DNA from: Myxococcales bacterium | GTDB lineage: Bacteria; Myxococcota_A; Polyangia; Polyangiales; Polyangiaceae | Direction of reading: 5' to 3' | DNA length: 49,330 bases | NCBI GenBank assembly: GCA_025351875.1 | Contig: JANXVA010000005.1 | Location: 1 to 49,330 of the forward strand | In this document: positions 15,184 to 47,555 of the stretch, in pieces | Position numbering within the stretch: the stretch's first letter is position 1 | How the letters are laid out: each line of letters starts with the position of its first letter | Made by a program: the position numbers and the translations under genes | Notes under the pieces: model-generated | Databases searched by the model: none | What the model saw: the letters and a program-made list of their open reading frames with translations, nothing else | Told to the model about the DNA's origin: nothing

Positions 15184-15975
15184 TCAGCTCGCCTGTGCGC
15201 CGCGCTTACGTGGCGCGCCGCTCGGCTTCTTCGCGGTGGGGCGCACGGGCGCTTGCGGCAGATCGTCGAAGGTCGCGAGGACGGCTTCGTAGCCACGCTT
15301 GACGTCGGCGTCGAAGAGCGTCTTCATCTTGGCGCCGAGGGTGCGCAGCTGATCGTTCGACATGGCCTTTCTCACCTTGGGGAAGAGGTCGTCCTCCTCT
15401 TCCTTGTGGTGGTTGACCATGAGCTCCTGGAGCGCCTTCACACGAGCCTTCAGGGACTCGTCGGTCGACCGAGTGGACAGCAAACGCTTGAGCGCGAAGC
15501 GGCCCATGGCGTGCTCCTCGAGCCCCTCGAGGATGACGTCGCTGTCGAGCTTGCGGACCGCGGGATAGAACAGCTCCTCCTCGATCGCGATGTGCGCCAC
15601 GAGGTTGTCGGCGACCTGACGGAGGAGTGAAGCGGTGCTGCCGTTCGCGGACTCCACCCCATCGAGGAGCTTCTCGACCTTCCGGTGATGAGAGATGAGG
15701 AGGTCGGTAGCGCGCGGTGCAGCTTCCGTGTCCGGGTGGGAGGTGACCGCGGACGCGAGGTCGCGGATCCGGTCCTCGGTCCCACGAGCCACGCTCGCTG
15801 CGAACGACGCCGTGGAGGCGAGCGCCGCGCCGACCTTCTCGAAGGTCGTCTTCGTCGCCTTCGTCGCCTTCGTCTGGCGCGTGGCCGAGACGCTCTTCGC
15901 GTTCGCCTTGGGCTTCGCGTTCGCCTTGGGCTTGGTGGCGGTCGTCTTCTTCGTCGGCATCTTGCTCGTTTTCAT
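15184..15975 (-). CDS. Hemerythrin HHE-domain protein with Lys/Ala-rich N-terminal tail
   Basis: MKTSKMPTKKTTATKPKANAKPKANAK...; LLISHHRKVEKLL, HIAIEEELFYPAV, EEHAMGRFALKRL, MVNHHKEEEDDLFP. Confidence 0.88.
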   Translation of the reverse strand: MKTSKMPTKKTTATKPKANAKPKANAKSVSATRQTKATKATKTTFEKVGAALASTASFAASVARGTEDRIRDLASAVTSHPDTEAAPRATDLLISHHRKVEKLLDGVESANGSTASLLRQVADNLVAHIAIEEELFYPAVRKLDSDVILEGLEEHAMGRFALKRLLSTRSTDESLKARVKALQELMVNHHKEEEDDLFPKVRKAMSNDQLRTLGAKMKTLFDADVKRGYEAVLATFDDLPQAPVRPTAKKPSGAPRKRGAQAS

Positions 15976-16023
15976 CGCGCGGTCCTTTTCAACTTCGTCC
16001 GTCCTGCGGAACCGCGCGTCAGT

Positions 16024-16039
16024 CGCAAGTCTTGCGCCA
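16024..16039 (-). promoter_or_regulatory. Putative sigma54 (-24/-12) promoter upstream of hemerythrin gene
   Basis: Minus strand TGGCGCAAGACTTGCG vs consensus TGGCACG-N4-TTGCW; GG-N10-GC spacing; about 50 nt upstream of ATG. Confidence 0.6.
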
Positions 16040-16196
16040 GTGGGCCGTGGGCTTTCAACCCGTGAATTTCGTTGATTGCCGGTGATTCCTCGACCGGAAT
16101 GCCACAGGCGTGTGCTCCGGCGCCACGGCTGTCTCGGGCCCACCCGCGCTCATGCCGAGGCGGAGCGCGCGAACACCGCGCGCTCCGCCGTCCGAG

Positions 16197-16691
16197 CTAT
16201 GTCGAGGGGGTGGCTGGGGCGGAGGCCGACGTGACCGCAGCGCCGCCTCGGCCCACCGCGTTCTCGTAGCCCTCCTTCACGGTCTTCTCGAAGAGCGTCT
16301 TCATCTCGGCGCAGAGCGCCTCGGACCGGTCGCCGAGCGCCTTCTCGGCACGCGGAAACATGTCCTCCTCTTCCTCCTCGACGTGGTGCTCGATGATCTC
16401 TTTCAGCGTCTTCACCTTCGCCTTGAAAGTTCGATCCGAAGGGTCCGTTTGCATGAGCCGCTTCAGCGCAAAGCGCGCCACTGCGTGCTCCTCGTAGCCC
16501 TCGAGCACGAGGTTCTCCTTCACTGCCAGAACGGCTGGGTAGAAGAGCTCCTGCTCGATGACCATGTGCGCGGCGAGGCTGTTGCCGAGCTTGTCGAGGA
16601 GCGCCTTGCTGTGGCCGTTCCCTTTCTCGAGACCCTTGAAGATCGCACTCACCTCGTCGTGCTGCCGCTTGAGCAGTTCTGTCGCTTTCAT
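16197..16691 (-). CDS. Hemerythrin HHE-domain protein
   Basis: MKATELLKRQHDEVSAIFKGLEKG...HMVIEQELFYPAV...EEHAVARFALKRL...IIEHHVEEEEEDMFP. Confidence 0.9.
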   Translation of the reverse strand: MKATELLKRQHDEVSAIFKGLEKGNGHSKALLDKLGNSLAAHMVIEQELFYPAVLAVKENLVLEGYEEHAVARFALKRLMQTDPSDRTFKAKVKTLKEIIEHHVEEEEEDMFPRAEKALGDRSEALCAEMKTLFEKTVKEGYENAVGRGGAAVTSASAPATPST

Positions 16692-16724
16692 CGTTCTTTG
16701 TCCTTGCTTCGAATGAGGGGTCGA

Positions 16725-17786
16725 TCAGACGGAGGGCGAGCTCGCGGGGCCGCTGCGCCCGTTGCTGTAGCCCCGGCTCGTCGGAGGGCCGTCCTTCTTC
16801 CCATCATCCTTGTCTGCCCCCGACGTGAGCTGACCGACCGCGGTTTCTGCCTTGTGCAGGGCCTCACCCGCCACGCCTTCGGCCTCCTTCATCAAGCGCT
16901 CCTTCGCAGCGCCCATCCACTGGTCCTCCGTCTCGGTGTGCGGCAGCGAAAGCGCGATCGCCGCGCCGACCGCGACGGCGACCGCACCGAGGGCGAGGGG
17001 GTTCGCGCGGAGCTGGCTCTCGATCCCGCGCTCTGCACGGATCACCTGACGGCCAGCACCGCGAAGCACGCGCTCGCCTCGAGCACGCGCGTCGTCGGCG
17101 AGCTGCGCCGCCGTATCGCGAGCACCGCCTGCCACCTCCGCGACGCGGTGGCCCGCGTCGTGGGCGAAGTGGCTCACCGAGTCTCCGACGTCGTGTGCGG
17201 CGCCCTTGAGACGACGCATCGGTCGCGCCGTCGACACCGAAGCGGTGTTGCTGCGGGCGCTGAAGATCAACCAGCCCAGCCCGACGCCGATGAGCGCGGC
17301 GGGGACCGGGTTCGCCTTGATCGTATCCATGACCGAGGTCCCGGCATCGGTGACCGACTCGCGTGCATCGTGAACCATGTGCTCTACCCTTCCAACGGTT
17401 GCTTCGCGGACCGCGATCCGCGCGTGGCTGATTTCATCCGAGACCATGTTGCGTGCGCCGGTGAGCTCACGACCGATGTCGTCTTTGAGCTGCACCTTCG
17501 CCTCCTTGTAGCCGTCGGCGAGCTGCTCTTTCGCCTCCTTGTAGCCGTCGGCGATCGAGCCCTTCAGCTCGGCGACCTTGCCTTCGAGGTTGTCGATGAC
17601 ACCGGAGGTGACGCTGTTGAGCTGCTCCTTGATGCGAGACGGGCTCAGGCGTTCCTCGATCTCGTTCACCGTGCGAGACATGTCGTCTCGCGTGCGCTCG
17701 ATGTCGACGCGGAGCGCCGCGGTGCCGTCGTTGAACCCGGGCGTCGTCTTCGGCGCCGTCATCGACTCATCTGCTCGCTTAACCAT
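16725..17786 (-). CDS. DUF3618-type membrane-associated coiled-coil protein
   Basis: ATG 17786: MVKRADESMTAPKT...ALRVDIERTRDDMSRTVNEIEERLSPSRIKEQL (DUF3618-like); 11-residue repeats; two hydrophobic segments. Confidence 0.8.
   Translation of the reverse strand: MVKRADESMTAPKTTPGFNDGTAALRVDIERTRDDMSRTVNEIEERLSPSRIKEQLNSVTSGVIDNLEGKVAELKGSIADGYKEAKEQLADGYKEAKVQLKDDIGRELTGARNMVSDEISHARIAVREATVGRVEHMVHDARESVTDAGTSVMDTIKANPVPAALIGVGLGWLIFSARSNTASVSTARPMRRLKGAAHDVGDSVSHFAHDAGHRVAEVAGGARDTAAQLADDARARGERVLRGAGRQVIRAERGIESQLRANPLALGAVAVAVGAAIALSLPHTETEDQWMGAAKERLMKEAEGVAGEALHKAETAVGQLTSGADKDDGKKDGPPTSRGYSNGRSGPASSPSV
17497..17554. repeat. 25-bp direct repeat at 33-bp period inside DUF3618 gene
   Basis: ttcgcctccttgtagccgtcggcga at 17497-17521 and 17530-17554; encodes ADGYKEAK-x3 twice. 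Confidence 0.85.
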
Positions 17787-18157
17787 CGCTTGTTCTCCTC
17801 GAGTGTTTCGATTGTCTGGCGCGGGGCTCCTTCGATGCCCTTGAGCGCGCGAATTCCCAGATTTGCGAGCACGGCGCCCGTGCCCGCGAGCATCACGCCC
17901 ACCACGAGCGCCGCCGCCCAGAGCGGCAAGAGCGTTCCGAGCGCGAGGATCAGCGCCGCCATCAAGGCCATGGCGCCGAGCATCGCGATCGCTCCGCCGG
18001 ATGCGACGACGGCCGCCTCGCGTCCTGCACTCTTCGCCTTGGCGGTCATCTCGACGCTCGCGAGCTGAACCTCCTTGCGGACGAGGGTGCCGGTCTCGCG
18101 TGCGAGCTCCGAGAAGAGCGCGCCGAGCGGCCTCGGTTCGGTCACCTGCTGCATCAC
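17759..18157 (-). CDS. Phage-holin-family / Holin-X-like membrane protein
   Basis: MMQQVTEPRPLGALFSELARETGTLVRKEVQLASVEM...two TM helices; overlaps neighbours at both ends. Confidence 0.8.
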   Translation of the reverse strand: MMQQVTEPRPLGALFSELARETGTLVRKEVQLASVEMTAKAKSAGREAAVVASGGAIAMLGAMALMAALILALGTLLPLWAAALVVGVMLAGTGAVLANLGIRALKGIEGAPRQTIETLEENKRWLSEQMSR

Positions 18158-18690
18158 GCGATTCCCGAGCTGCCGCCGCCGAAGCCGCTCTTGGGACGGT
18201 AGTCATCATCGGCGTACGAGCCGGCGTACGCGGCGTCGTGCAGGCCGCTGCCATTCGCCTGGCCGGCACCGGTAGTGCGATGCGCGGAGCTCTTCAGGAA
18301 GCGACCTCCGAGCAGGCCGAGCGCGAACGCGGCGCCGATGAAGAGCGCAGGCTCGCGCTTCGCGAACGACTCGACGTCGCGAACGACGTCACCGATCTGC
18401 TTGCCCTCGAAGAAGTCCGCGACCTTCTCGATACCGTCAGCCGCGCGGCCTGCGGCGTCACCAAGCGGACCGACGCCCTTGAGCTTGTCGCTCGTTTCGC
18501 GCATCGCGGTCGCGACGGTCGCCATGGTCTCGACGGCCTTGTCCTTGCGCGCCTCGAACTGCGTGCTCACTTGCTCGCGTGCCTGGTTGGCGACGTTGCT
18601 CGCGACATGGGTGACGGCCTGCTTGGCCTGATCGACGATCTTGGCGTCCTGATCCTTGGACGCCGGCAAACTCATGGTCGACTTGTTCAT
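18154..18690 (-). CDS. Envelope stress-type helical protein with one TM
   Basis: ATG 18690: MNKSTMSLPASKDQDAKIVDQAKQAVTHVASNVANQAREQ...FAKREPALFIGAAFALGLLGGRFLKSS. Confidence 0.78.
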   Translation of the reverse strand: MNKSTMSLPASKDQDAKIVDQAKQAVTHVASNVANQAREQVSTQFEARKDKAVETMATVATAMRETSDKLKGVGPLGDAAGRAADGIEKVADFFEGKQIGDVVRDVESFAKREPALFIGAAFALGLLGGRFLKSSAHRTTGAGQANGSGLHDAAYAGSYADDDYRPKSGFGGGSSGIA

Positions 18691-18735
18691 TGCGCTTCCT
18701 TCCGTTGCGTTGCTGGAGACCTGCCTTCTTCCGAA

Positions 18736-18751
18736 TGCGAAGGGCGTACCG
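18736..18751 (-). promoter_or_regulatory. Putative sigma54 (-24/-12) promoter
   Basis: Minus strand CGGTACGCCCTTCGCA; GG-N10-GC; about 46 nt upstream of ATG 18690; weaker than the others (3 mismatches). Confidence 0.4.
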
Positions 18752-18900
18752 TCGCGACGAAGTTCGCGAAGAGAGCAAAAAAATGCGAGCGATCGCGCAA
18801 GAGATGCGTGTAGTGCACATCGATCGCTACGTACACGAACGCACCCCTGACACAGCGCCGTGAGGCGAAACGAAGCATGCGCGGCCAGACAAAACGCAGA

Positions 18901-18932
18901 ACGCGGTGCCGATCCGGAGATCGACACCGCGT
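18901..18932 (-). terminator. Rho-independent-like terminator downstream of glycine-zipper stress gene
   Basis: ACGCGGTG-CC-GATC-CGGA-GATC-GA-CACCGCGT hairpin; on the minus strand followed by TCTGCGTTTTGTC; 28 nt after stop at 18960. Confidence 0.7.
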
Positions 18933-18959
18933 CCATTGAAGCGCGAGCAGAGAGGTCGC

Positions 18960-19511
18960 TCAGACCGTGCTGCGCGGCGGCTCCTTCGAGCTGTTCGGAA
19001 CGCTCGCCTCGGTCGTCGCGCAGATGTCCTGCGCGGAGCCGTTCTTGAAGATCGTCTCCGCGCGCTTCTGCTCGTCGCTGTTCTCGCTGTGGACGGAGAT
19101 GAGGATGTTGCCCCCCTTGATCTTGCCCTCGTAGCGCTTGGCCTCGATCTCGGGGATCCCCATTCCGACGAGAGCGCCGGTGACGCCGCCAACGGTGGCT
19201 CCGGCGGCCGCGCCGCTCAGCGCCGCCAGCAGCGGGCCGGCCGCGATGAAGGGACCGAAGCCCGGAATGGCGAGCGCGCCGATCCCGGCGAGGAGCCCGA
19301 GTGTTCCGCCGAGGACACCGCCGGCGCCCGCACCCGCGACGGCGCCTTCGGGGGCCTTCGTGTTGTGCTCGTGAGCGAAGTCCTTGGTGCCGTCCTTGTT
19401 GGGGAACAGCACGGAGATGTCGTTGTTCGAGAATCCGGCGGCCTGGAGCTGGCCCACGATCATCTCAGCCGCGCTGCGGCTCTGCACGATGCACATGACT
19501 GCTTTCTTCAT
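18960..19511 (-). CDS. General-stress-like protein with glycine-zipper membrane region
   Basis: MKKAVMCIVQSRSAAEMIVGQLQAAGFSNNDISVLFPN...GAVAGAGAGGVLGGTLGLLAGIGALAIPGFGPFIAAGP. Confidence 0.8.
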   Translation of the reverse strand: MKKAVMCIVQSRSAAEMIVGQLQAAGFSNNDISVLFPNKDGTKDFAHEHNTKAPEGAVAGAGAGGVLGGTLGLLAGIGALAIPGFGPFIAAGPLLAALSGAAAGATVGGVTGALVGMGIPEIEAKRYEGKIKGGNILISVHSENSDEQKRAETIFKNGSAQDICATTEASVPNSSKEPPRSTV

Positions 19512-19545
19512 TTTACTTTTCCTTCGTTGGAGACGATCGACTGCT

Positions 19546-20169
19546 TCACTTCTTAACTTCGATCTGGTTGTCGACTTCCGTGACGCCGGAAGTCTGCTTG
19601 GCGCTTGCTTCGATTGCAGAGCGCTCCTGATCGCTCTTGACCGGTCCGCGCAGGGTGACCTTGGTGCCGTTGGTGATGATCTTCACGTTCTTCGCGGTGA
19701 AGGAGAGCGCCTTGTCCGCGACGACAGCGCGGCGAATGGCCGCCGTGATGTTGCGCTCCGCCGCACTGCCGCCCTGGTCCATGGGCGTGAGTGCGCCGTG
19801 CCGATCGCGATCGTTGATCTTGGTGTTCGTGGCGTTCTTCGTCTGATCTGCGACGCCGGGATTGGCGACGACGGCGGCGGGCGCGGGCGCGGCGGTCGCG
19901 GTTGCATCGGTGGTAGCGACCGCGACGGGAGCGACGGGCTCCGTCTTGCGGTCAGCACGGCCCGTGGTGACCGCTGTCTTGTTGGTGTTTGTGTCGGAGG
20001 ACGGGCTTGCCGCGCCGTTGGTGGCAGACGACGTCGTGGAGAGCGTGGTCGACTCCGTGTGCGCGCCGGCGTTGTCGAGCGATGAGGGATCGTTCGCAGG
20101 CGGGGCGTCTTGTCGGGCGCAAGCTGCGATCCCGAGCGCACAAGTGATGGCGATGAGGCTTGTCTTCAT
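19546..20169 (-). CDS. BON-domain (OsmY-like) lipoprotein
   Basis: MKTSLIAITCALGIAACARQDAPP...; ITAAIRRAVVADKALSFTAKNVKIITNGTKVTLRGPVKSDQERSAIEASAKQTSGVTEVDNQIEVKK. Confidence 0.9.
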   Translation of the reverse strand: MKTSLIAITCALGIAACARQDAPPANDPSSLDNAGAHTESTTLSTTSSATNGAASPSSDTNTNKTAVTTGRADRKTEPVAPVAVATTDATATAAPAPAAVVANPGVADQTKNATNTKINDRDRHGALTPMDQGGSAAERNITAAIRRAVVADKALSFTAKNVKIITNGTKVTLRGPVKSDQERSAIEASAKQTSGVTEVDNQIEVKK

Positions 20170-20202
20170 TGGGTTCTCCGATTCGGTTCGGACGAGGCGC
20201 CA

Positions 20203-20218
20203 AGCAATTCACGCGCCG
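20203..20218 (-). promoter_or_regulatory. Putative sigma54 (-24/-12) promoter upstream of BON gene
   Basis: Minus strand CGGCGCGTGAATTGCT; GG-N10-GC with TTGCT -12; about 35 nt upstream of ATG. Confidence 0.6.
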
Positions 20219-20418
20219 CCCGCGTGACGCACGATTACGCGGGGTCTCGGCAGCTCCGCTCTGTGGAGGTGCGCACCAATGTGCGTGGCTCAGTGGCGGA
20301 ATGGTTACATCGAGTACCGGCGCGAGCAGGTGAGCTCGAGCGGCGGTCGCCCGACTCCACTCACGCTGGCTGCGTCGGAAGGTGTCGCGCTCCGTCATGA
20401 GGAAGCGTGGCGGCACGC

Positions 20419-20434
20419 CGGCCCGCGACTTGCG
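20419..20434 (+). promoter_or_regulatory. Putative sigma54 (-24/-12) promoter upstream of 25-aa microprotein
   Basis: CGGCCCGCGACTTGCG; GG-N10-GC with TTGC -12; about 50 nt upstream of ATG 20483. Confidence 0.5.
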
Positions 20435-20482
20435 ACGAGAGGCGAACGAGCGAATCATCGCTCCCCTACGAAGGACACTCTC

Positions 20483-20560
20483 ATGAAGTACGGACTCGCA
20501 TGGCTCCTGGGCATCCCGATTCCGATCCTCGCCGTCGTCTACCTGGTCTCGCACTGCTAG
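20483..20560 (+). CDS. 25-aa hydrophobic membrane microprotein
   Basis: MKYGLAWLLGIPIPILAVVYLVSHC; AAGGAC Shine-Dalgarno-like upstream; single TM with short polar ends. Confidence 0.6.
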   Translation: MKYGLAWLLGIPIPILAVVYLVSHC

Positions 20561-45571: not shown

Positions 45572-46018
45572 TCAGCGCGGGGTCGTCGGGTTCGCGCCCC
45601 AGAGCTCGACCTTCGCCTTACCTCCACCGGGGAGGTCGCGGTACTTGAACTCGACGCGCTTGATGACGCGCTTGTTGCCGGGCAGGTCGATGACGCGGCT
45701 GCGCGAATCCTTGCTGAAGACGACGCGCGTGTTCGGCTCGAATGTCTCGCCATTGCCGAAGACCACCTTGATCTCGAACATCGCGAGGGCGCTGCCGTCC
45801 ACCTGGATCTGGATCGCGGTGAAGGCGCCGTCGTCACGTCCGACGTGGATGACGTCCTTGTCCGCCTTGGCATCGACGTGGCGCTCCCCGAGCTTCTCCC
45901 ACCGGTACTGCGATGCCTGATGCGGGGCCGGCGTCGGGTCGGCCTGCGCGACCGCGGGGGATGCCATGAACGCCGCCATGAGGGCGACGGTGCTGAGGAG
46001 GATGTTCGACTTGTTCAT
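45572..46018 (-). CDS. Exported DUF2541-like protein
   Basis: MNKSNILLSTVALMAAFMASPAVAQADP...; GNKRVIKRVEFKYRDLPGGGKAKVELWG. Confidence 0.78.
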   Translation of the reverse strand: MNKSNILLSTVALMAAFMASPAVAQADPTPAPHQASQYRWEKLGERHVDAKADKDVIHVGRDDGAFTAIQIQVDGSALAMFEIKVVFGNGETFEPNTRVVFSKDSRSRVIDLPGNKRVIKRVEFKYRDLPGGGKAKVELWGANPTTPR

Positions 46019-46085: not shown

Positions 46086-46226
46086 ACCGTCGAACCGCAG
46101 AGGAACGGCCTTCTAGGCGGCTCCGGAAACGGATGTGCGGCCACGAAGCCGCCGATCCGCGGCCTCCAGGCCGACCTCCGAGAGAGTGACGATCGACCGG
46201 CGCTGTCGCGCTATCATGAGGGCCGA

Positions 46227-47555
46227 ATGCGGAGGGCAAGCGCACGAGCGGAGGATGGGACGGAGGTTCTCGACGTACGCGGTCCGGCGGCCGTTGCGCC
46301 GCTCGCGGCAGCGCTCACCTTCGAGGGGGTGAACGCGACTCCCTCTCGCTTCGTGCTCGAGACCGGCACGTGCGTGGTCGGCTCCGGCGCCGCGAGCGAC
46401 GTCGTGCTCGACGACCCTGCGGTCTCTCGCGCGCACGTAGAGCTCTCGCTCGCTCCAGAGGGGATCGCCATCGCCGATCTCGGTAGCCGCAACGGGACGT
46501 TCTATCTCGGGCAGCGCGTCGCGAAGATCACCCTCACTCCCGGCAGCCGCTTCCAGGTCGGCCGCGCGACCGTCTGCGTCGACACCGACACGGCATCGCT
46601 CGACGTGCCGAGCGGGCGCCAGCGCGAGGAGTACGGCGGGCTCGTCGGTCGCTCGCCGGCGATGCTCCGGCTCTTCACGATCCTCGAGCGGCTCGAGGGC
46701 TCTCTCGTGCCGGTCCTCGTCGAAGGCGAGTCGGGCGTCGGAAAGGAGCTCGTCGCTGCCGCCGTTCACGCTCACTCCGCCGTCGCGAGCGGTCCGTTCG
46801 TCATCCTGAACTGCGGTGCGTTCAGTCGCGAGCTCCTCGCGAGCGAGCTGTTCGGGCACAAGAAGGGCGCCTTCACCGGCGCGAACGAGAGCCGCCGCGG
46901 CGCCCTCGAGATGGCCGAGGGCGGAACGCTCTTTCTCGACGAGCTCGGCGAGATGCCGCTCGACGTCCAGCCGCTGCTCCTCCGCTTCCTCGAGTCAGGC
47001 GAGCTGCGCGCCGTCGGTAGCGACACGTCGCGGACGGTCCGTGTGCGCGTCGTCGCCGCAACGAACCGCGACCTGGAGGCCGCCGTCACCGCCGCCCAGT
47101 TCCGCCAGGATCTCTTCTACAGGCTCGCGGTCGTTCGCCTCTGGGTCCCGCCGCTGCGCGAGCGGCCCGAGGACGTCGAGCCGACGGCGATCCGCCTCGC
47201 CGCGAACCTCGGGATCCCGCCGCTTCCGCCGCACCTCCTCTCACGCCTTCGTGCGCGGACGTGGGCCGGCAATGTTCGCGAGCTTCGCAACGTGCTGCAG
47301 GCGTACGAGGTCCTGGGCGATCTCGCCGAAGGCCCACGCGAAGCGAAGAAGCCGCTCGGCGCCGCCGTCGCCGTCGACCTCGACCGTCCCTACCACGACG
47401 CGAAGGAGGAGCTGATCGAGCGCTTCACTCGTGCGTACATGCAGGGCATGCTCGATCGCACGGGGGGCAACCAGGCGGAGATGGCACGGCTCGCGGGGCT
47501 CGACCGCACGTACCTCGGCCGTCTTCTCAAGCAGCACGGAATCTCGAAAGCATGA
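46227..47555 (+). CDS. FHA-domain sigma54-dependent transcriptional activator
   Basis: FHA: VGSGAASDVVLDDPAVSRAHVEL..IADLGSRNGTFY; AAA+: GESGVGKELVAAAVH, GHKKGAFTGANESRRGALEMAEGGTLFLDELGEMPLD; Fis-type HTH: GGNQAEMARLAGLDRTYLGRLLKQHGI. Confidence 0.95.
   Translation: MRRASARAEDGTEVLDVRGPAAVAPLAAALTFEGVNATPSRFVLETGTCVVGSGAASDVVLDDPAVSRAHVELSLAPEGIAIADLGSRNGTFYLGQRVAKITLTPGSRFQVGRATVCVDTDTASLDVPSGRQREEYGGLVGRSPAMLRLFTILERLEGSLVPVLVEGESGVGKELVAAAVHAHSAVASGPFVILNCGAFSRELLASELFGHKKGAFTGANESRRGALEMAEGGTLFLDELGEMPLDVQPLLLRFLESGELRAVGSDTSRTVRVRVVAATNRDLEAAVTAAQFRQDLFYRLAVVRLWVPPLRERPEDVEPTAIRLAANLGIPPLPPHLLSRLRARTWAGNVRELRNVLQAYEVLGDLAEGPREAKKPLGAAVAVDLDRPYHDAKEELIERFTRAYMQGMLDRTGGNQAEMARLAGLDRTYLGRLLKQHGISKA

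Follow-up and report, generated by a model that had tools for sequence, protein, structure and literature searches.

In Escherichia coli the RpoS (sigmaS) regulon includes relatives of OsmY/BON, YtjA/DUF1328 and YeaQ/YmgE/GlsB; for the Myxococcota, the mechanism of the general stress response is to our knowledge not settled. Here we analyze a gene cluster of a soil myxobacterium of the Polyangiaceae (assembly GCA_025351875.1; 8.93 Mb, 805 contigs) that encodes several envelope and stress families and in which four sigma54-type (-24/-12) elements precede the transcription units. The stretch studied, referred to as the window, is one entire contig of 49,330 nt (JANXVA010000005.1). Unlike those of the RpoS regulon, the promoters predicted here are sigma54-type and would need an ATP-driven activator. 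Elements of this type also precede envelope and general-stress genes in dozens of relatives. Our analysis suggests that part of the stress protection is switched on via a sigma factor other than the usual one, and we consider it quite probable that the cluster comprises four sigma54 units belonging to a Myxococcota stress regulon under an NtrC-type activator.

The closest system found is the NmpRSTU / NmpR sigma54 regulon of Myxococcus xanthus (PMC11841059). There, too, an NtrC-type response regulator binds dyads upstream of sigma54 promoters; the regulon includes a hemerythrin as well as CBS and universal stress proteins, and the activator regulates its own system. It differs in gene content, with oxygen-use genes there (cbb3 oxidase, hemN, hemerythrin) and mostly envelope and general-stress families here, and in its site, GCGCA-N5-TGCGC, which is not enriched at the promoters considered here. 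In the Rrp2-RpoN-RpoS pathway of Borrelia burgdorferi (PMC2940757), sigma54 and an NtrC-type response regulator also stand upstream of a stress and adaptation programme; however, sigma54 acts there via RpoS, whereas here the predicted sites lie directly on stress genes. Control of envelope and exterior functions by sigma54 was proposed on comparative grounds (PMC3162934); searching its text for Sorangium, hemerythrin or osmY gave no hits, and the regulon and dyad described below were not found there. In M. xanthus, sigma54 is essential (PMC12316311). No earlier description of the regulon proposed here was found in literature searches on sigma54 with BON, YeaQ, DUF1328, Sorangium or Labilithrix that covered mainly open-access papers.

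Sigma54-type sites and their conservation

The first-pass annotation of the window had claimed four GG-N10-GC elements 30-55 nt upstream of starts, three of them with TTGC at -12. Both observations hold: all four 16-mers are present exactly, at 33-48 nt, and TTGC occurs in 3/4 (Table 1). Its caution that GG-N10-GC is common by chance in high-GC DNA was also justified, as 50-57% of shuffled versions of the four upstream windows contain one, which makes the bare motif worthless as evidence. Raw motif counts are unusable as well, since neither GG-N8-TTGC in the window (22 seen vs 19 expected) nor TGGC-N7-TTGC genome-wide (201 vs 300 for the reversed pattern) is enriched. When scored with a weighted sigma54 matrix, each of the four upstream windows has a best site that is rare (shuffle P 0.002-0.010), and the scan found no site before the internal or later operon genes (second hemerythrin, DUF3618, holin-like, YflT). 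Judged by spacing, the cluster forms four transcription units: hemerythrin 1; the gene at 18154-18690 (hereafter the 18690 gene) with the holin-like, DUF3618 and second hemerythrin genes, which overlap or are separated by a short gap; BON and YflT, also with a short gap; and the microprotein gene. Since sites stand only at unit starts, DUF3618, the holin-like protein, the second hemerythrin and YflT would be controlled via their operons.

The case for these predicted sites is carried by position and conservation, conservation in relatives being decisive. The upstream 110 nt of orthologs were scored in relatives of the same family or order with a cut-off of at least 11 bits. Sites were found before 14/22 BON orthologs (shuffle mean 0.14), 6/14 orthologs of the 18690 gene (0.06), 7/10 microprotein orthologs (0.08; scores of 11-15 bits) and 6/20 hemerythrin orthologs (0.12). 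None of these four counts was matched in 200 shuffles, and the reverse-strand control gave 0, 0, 0 and 2, respectively. Many ortholog sites are close to TGGCACG-N4-TTGCW. Orthologs of the 18690 gene carry [TC]GGCACG-N4-TCGCA variants (L070, L072, L073, L077, L078), and a close relative (G166, L069) has the identical 16-mer; as TCGCA in place of TTGCW is kept across these orthologs, the window site lacking TTGC is a conserved variant.

The BON family was further surveyed over named genomes (59 loci, 24 from Myxococcota and 35 from other phyla). The named carriers of BON relatives are Labilithrix and other Polyangiaceae, Sorangium, Minicystis and Sandaracinaceae, which places the studied genome in the Polyangiales, close to Labilithrix. 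A sigma54-like site of at least 10 bits was present at 22/24 Myxococcota loci, whereas outside this phylum (Verrucomicrobiota, Chlamydiae, methylotrophs and others) only 2/35 loci had one, even at 9.5 bits or more. By this comparison, BON is a gene family common to several phyla with a predicted promoter that is lineage-specific. This same BON family, recognizable by its ADNTxxNxRDR...TPxDQG motif, also occurs in Verrucomicrobiota, Chlamydiae and methylotrophs (L144-L182), nearly without sigma54 sites.

Near the BON genes of relatives, sigma54 sites were also seen before GlsB/YeaQ-like and DUF1328-like genes; both families were therefore searched, together with a control, across the 108 genomes of the taxonomic family. 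A site scoring 11 bits or more precedes 25/30 GlsB/YeaQ and 26/30 DUF1328/YtjA genes, compared with 0/30 ribosomal L12 control genes. The copies in the studied genome itself have sites of 14.2 bits (GlsB) and 10.9 bits (DUF1328). Elsewhere in the phylum, DUF1328 has such a site in 15/30 cases, the best reaching 18.7 bits; the scores fall into two peaks, sites being either strong or absent. The sigma54 idea thus correctly predicted putative sites on further envelope-stress families. The general-stress families with such sites now include BON (with YflT in the operon), GlsB/YeaQ, DUF1328 and KGG, as judged by sequence only. As a prediction of this kind, the coordinated sigma54 envelope/stress module proposed in the first-pass annotation is supported by the ortholog sites, the contrast with other phyla, the conserved TCGCA variant and the GlsB and DUF1328 results.

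Upstream dyad and candidate activator

An initial dyad count with 4-mers upstream of the sigma54 sites gave only GC-rich noise. Word enrichment in the same regions revealed GAGGCA/TGCCTC in 18/41 promoters vs 4.2, and TGRGGCA was found in 14/53 vs 2.35 expected in a second set (previously unused GlsB and DUF1328 promoters). Expectation-maximisation yielded a 17-bp dyad, YGNGGCA-N3-TGCCNCR, present in about half of the promoters (46/94, vs 2.8 in shuffles). When trained on GlsB and DUF1328 only, the dyad was recovered at 10 bits or more in 11/41 original-family promoters, vs 0.66 in shuffled sequence and 4.3% of random genomic segments; the training started from a motif seen earlier in both sets, and independence of this held-out test is not complete. 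Exact dyads combined with sigma54 sites in five genomes precede KGG, SPW, hemerythrin, DUF1328, phospholipase-D-type (PLD), haem-oxygenase-like, MlaE and protein-kinase genes, with the KGG, SPW, hemerythrin, DUF1328 and PLD cases in Sorangium; some of these genes will be chance matches, as the control was clearly exceeded only in two genomes (7 vs 1 in G130 and 12 vs 6 in G133).

The studied genome has a single rpoN copy (one PF04552 match), and the sigma54-activation domain PF00158 is matched 71 times in it, about 60 of these matches being strong. A candidate among these activators is suggested by gene neighborhoods. In Minicystis rosea, the gene of a receiver-AAA-HTH8 regulator, at L152:1530-2972, and that of a small histidine kinase lie no more than a few kb from GlsB, DUF1328, BON and YflT genes, with BON and YflT ordered as they are in the window. 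A relative of this regulator in G130 (64% identical over 264 aa) lies ~640 bp from DUF1328. Several paralogs are encoded in the studied genome, and four of these share 60-67% identity with the Minicystis protein. The promoter of one (contig C302), which was completed from contig C417 through an exact overlap of 141 bp, contains the dyad CGAGGCAATTCGCCTCG, at 18.9 bits the top-scoring one reported in this analysis, followed 40 bp further on by a sigma54 site of 15.4 bits; another (C630) has a 13.8-bit dyad and a 13.7-bit sigma54 site 39 bp apart. Among 44 activators of this genome with upstream sequence available, the two best dyads both belong to the receiver-AAA-HTH8 clade. Hence this clade of NtrC-type response regulators, some members of which lie beside regulon genes and carry the dyad, is the likely activator, and the C302 and C630 promoters point to its autoregulation. 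On the joined contigs C417 and C302 (L421, L422), two close candidate-activator paralogs are oriented divergently around a common upstream region, and histidine kinase genes lie close by; the two contigs join inside the sigma54 site. An activator near BON in Sorangium, 86-93% identical among Sorangium strains, belongs to another clade, whose best match in the studied genome is ~40% identical over most of its length; it was not chosen but is kept as a possible candidate.

In the explanation we favor, each of the four units would be started by RNA polymerase with sigma54 (RpoN), and the cluster would be part of a larger Myxococcota envelope and general-stress regulon, to which GlsB/YeaQ, DUF1328/YtjA, KGG-repeat, hemerythrin and phospholipase-D-type genes would also belong. 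Its activator, an NtrC-type response regulator in the phosphorylated state, composed of a receiver, an AAA+ sigma54-activation domain and a Fis-type helix-turn-helix, would bind the 17-bp dyad ~40-200 bp upstream and open the sigma54 promoter by ATP hydrolysis, the activator genes carrying the same arrangement of dyad and sigma54 site. The computation supports the conserved, predicted sigma54-like promoters as well as the dyad in relatives and a candidate activator clade. Because the four window promoters have a weak dyad or none, we infer the activator there, that is, that the receiver clade and not another of the ~60 activators would act on them. The label "stress" is used because the gene families are known for stress elsewhere; the signal would be envelope, osmotic or oxygen stress, and the dynamics should be read in the same conditional sense.

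Points against and alternative readings

Several points weigh against this explanation. First, the scores of two window sites are modest (8.7 and 9.5 bits), the sigma54 matrix was modeled on the published consensus, and the start codons were picked by rule. Second, hemerythrin orthology is loose, and its support is the weakest of the four families. Third, related genomes are non-independent samples, so binomial values come out too small and the contrasts with other phyla, ribosomal L12 and the reverse strand weigh more. Finally, the dyad is weak or absent both at the four window promoters and at the BON promoters of Labilithrix (best ~10 bits), the Labilithrix relatives being enriched for the half-site TGTGGC only (10/25 vs 1.6). 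Exact dyads are not enriched across the studied genome (3 vs 7 in the control), and the dyad is therefore not claimed for the window promoters.

The same facts bear on a reading in which the sigma54 promoters are real but served by several activators, which would make the cluster a collection of sigma54 genes rather than a single coordinated regulon. The ~60 activators in the genome, the dyad at only about half of the promoters in relatives and its weakness in the window, and the different half-site within the genus all agree with it. However, one dyad recurs over at least six gene families and passed the held-out test, and in Minicystis BON-YflT, DUF1328 and GlsB occur together with one activator clade. 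We regard several activators as a serious possibility, although a doubtful one.

Another reading sees in the cluster a regulon for oxygen limitation that would correspond, in Polyangiales, to the NmpR regulon, with stress secondary. Hemerythrins are common to both, and the CBS and universal stress proteins of the NmpR regulon (PMC11841059) have a parallel in CBS genes near sigma54 sites at two loci (L128 and L327). In addition, GCGCAAGAGATGCGT (18795-18809, + strand), one mismatch from the Myxococcus NmpR site, lies 43 bp upstream of the 18736-18751 element; it is single, and no match to GCA-N5-TGC occurs in the corresponding orthologous region of G166. NmpR-type dyads, which are usually paired, were nevertheless rejected as the upstream motif, GCA-N5-TGC occurring in 2/41 promoters with no peak at N5. 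Moreover, the main families (BON, YflT, GlsB, DUF1328, KGG) are not oxygen genes, and cbb3 oxidase or hemN did not turn up, though no search was aimed at either. An oxygen regulon of this type thus seems unlikely. Chance matches in GC-rich DNA, with the genes read from sigma70 or ECF promoters, would fit the lack of genome-wide enrichment of the raw motif and the two modest sites, but are already disfavoured and highly improbable in view of same-position conservation in many relatives compared with shuffles, the reverse strand, other phyla and ribosomal L12.

Beyond the favored sigma54 regulon, a broader proposal can be put forward tentatively, and we hold it to be rather less probable than its negation: in Myxococcota, sigma54 and an autoregulated NtrC-type clade may form a direct envelope general-stress system acting via YGNGGCA-N3-TGCCNCR and doing the work of sigmaS, sigmaB or EcfG, with this control acquired in Myxococcota and orthologs in other phyla outside it. 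If true, a direct sigma54 programme over BON, YflT, GlsB, DUF1328, KGG and hemerythrin would be a partial answer to the question of the general stress response in this phylum and one reason for the importance of rpoN there. Dozens of unannotated small membrane proteins, including the 25-aa microprotein, would also become regulon members with a named site and few candidate activators.

Cluster genes and neighboring observations

The gene content given by the first-pass annotation was confirmed, comprising two hemerythrins, DUF3618, Holin-X, BON, YflT with a glycine zipper, one family-less protein and the 25-aa microprotein (Table 1).

Table 1. Positions of sigma54-type elements, cluster genes and the tentative dyad match in the window.
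Feature	Position	Strand	Details
-24/-12 element TGGCGCAAGACTTGCG, 48 nt before hemerythrin 1	16039-16024	-	11.5 bits, shuffle P 0.002
Element CGGTACGCCCTTCGCA, TCGCA variant, 45 nt before four-gene operon (18690 gene)	18751-18736	-	shuffle P 0.010
Element CGGCGCGTGAATTGCT, 33 nt before BON gene	20218-20203	-	12.0 bits, shuffle P 0.003
Element CGGCCCGCGACTTGCG, 48 nt before microprotein	20419-20434	+	8.7 bits, shuffle P 0.008
Weak dyad match TGAGGCGAAACGAAGCA, best near cluster, tentative	18861-18877		10.6 bits; 110 bp upstream of 18736-18751 element
Hemerythrin 1, HHE domain, Lys/Ala-rich N-terminus, 263 aa	15184-15975	-	PF01814 E 2.7e-14
Second hemerythrin, operon gene 4	16197-16691	-	PF01814 E 5.9e-13
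DUF3618 protein, operon gene 3	16725-17786	-	PF12277 E 5.7e-9
Holin-X / phage holin 3_6 superfamily membrane protein, operon gene 2	17759-18157	-	PF07332 E 2.3e-28
18690 gene, operon gene 1, 178 aa	18154-18690	-	no Pfam or NCBIfam family
YflT-domain protein, glycine-zipper middle part, second gene after BON	18960-19511	-	PF11181 26.4 bits, cut-off 26.2
BON-domain lipoprotein-like protein (OsmY/DolP-like BON), gene 1 of two-gene operon	19546-20169	-	PF04972 E 3.6e-13
25-aa membrane-type microprotein MKYGLAWLLGIPIPILAVVYLVSHC	20483-20560	+	full-length homologs in nine other genomes

The match of the BON protein to OsmY is weak. In Minicystis, a YflT-related gene also follows BON, there just under the cut-off. 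The second hemerythrin resembles the PA2171 ribosome-binding persister protein family, below the cut-off (NF053874, 86.8 bits vs 190). With 11/25 residues invariant across eight distinct sequences, the microprotein is by this comparison a real conserved family; its pattern, MKYGxAWLxGxPxxxxxxWFLxNHC, is kept in several genera of the taxonomic family and has no Pfam or NCBIfam model.

Homologs of the 18690 gene are present in 13/108 family genomes, and the order 18690 gene-holin-DUF3618 is kept in G166. There (L327:4600-7200), the block and an identical sigma54 element stand directly behind respiratory-complex-I-like genes; the block has thus moved with its own promoter in one of the two genomes.

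An FHA-domain sigma54 activator encoded in the window (46176-47555, + strand) was set aside as a regulator of the cluster, as it falls outside the receiver clade and is not connected to the cluster by any dyad. Its gene is divergent from that of a secreted-type protein of 148 aa without a known family (45572-46018, - strand), which has its own sigma54-like site (46085, - strand, 12.2 bits), and a Ser/Thr-kinase-like frame follows at the contig end; together these are perhaps a separate local sigma54 system.

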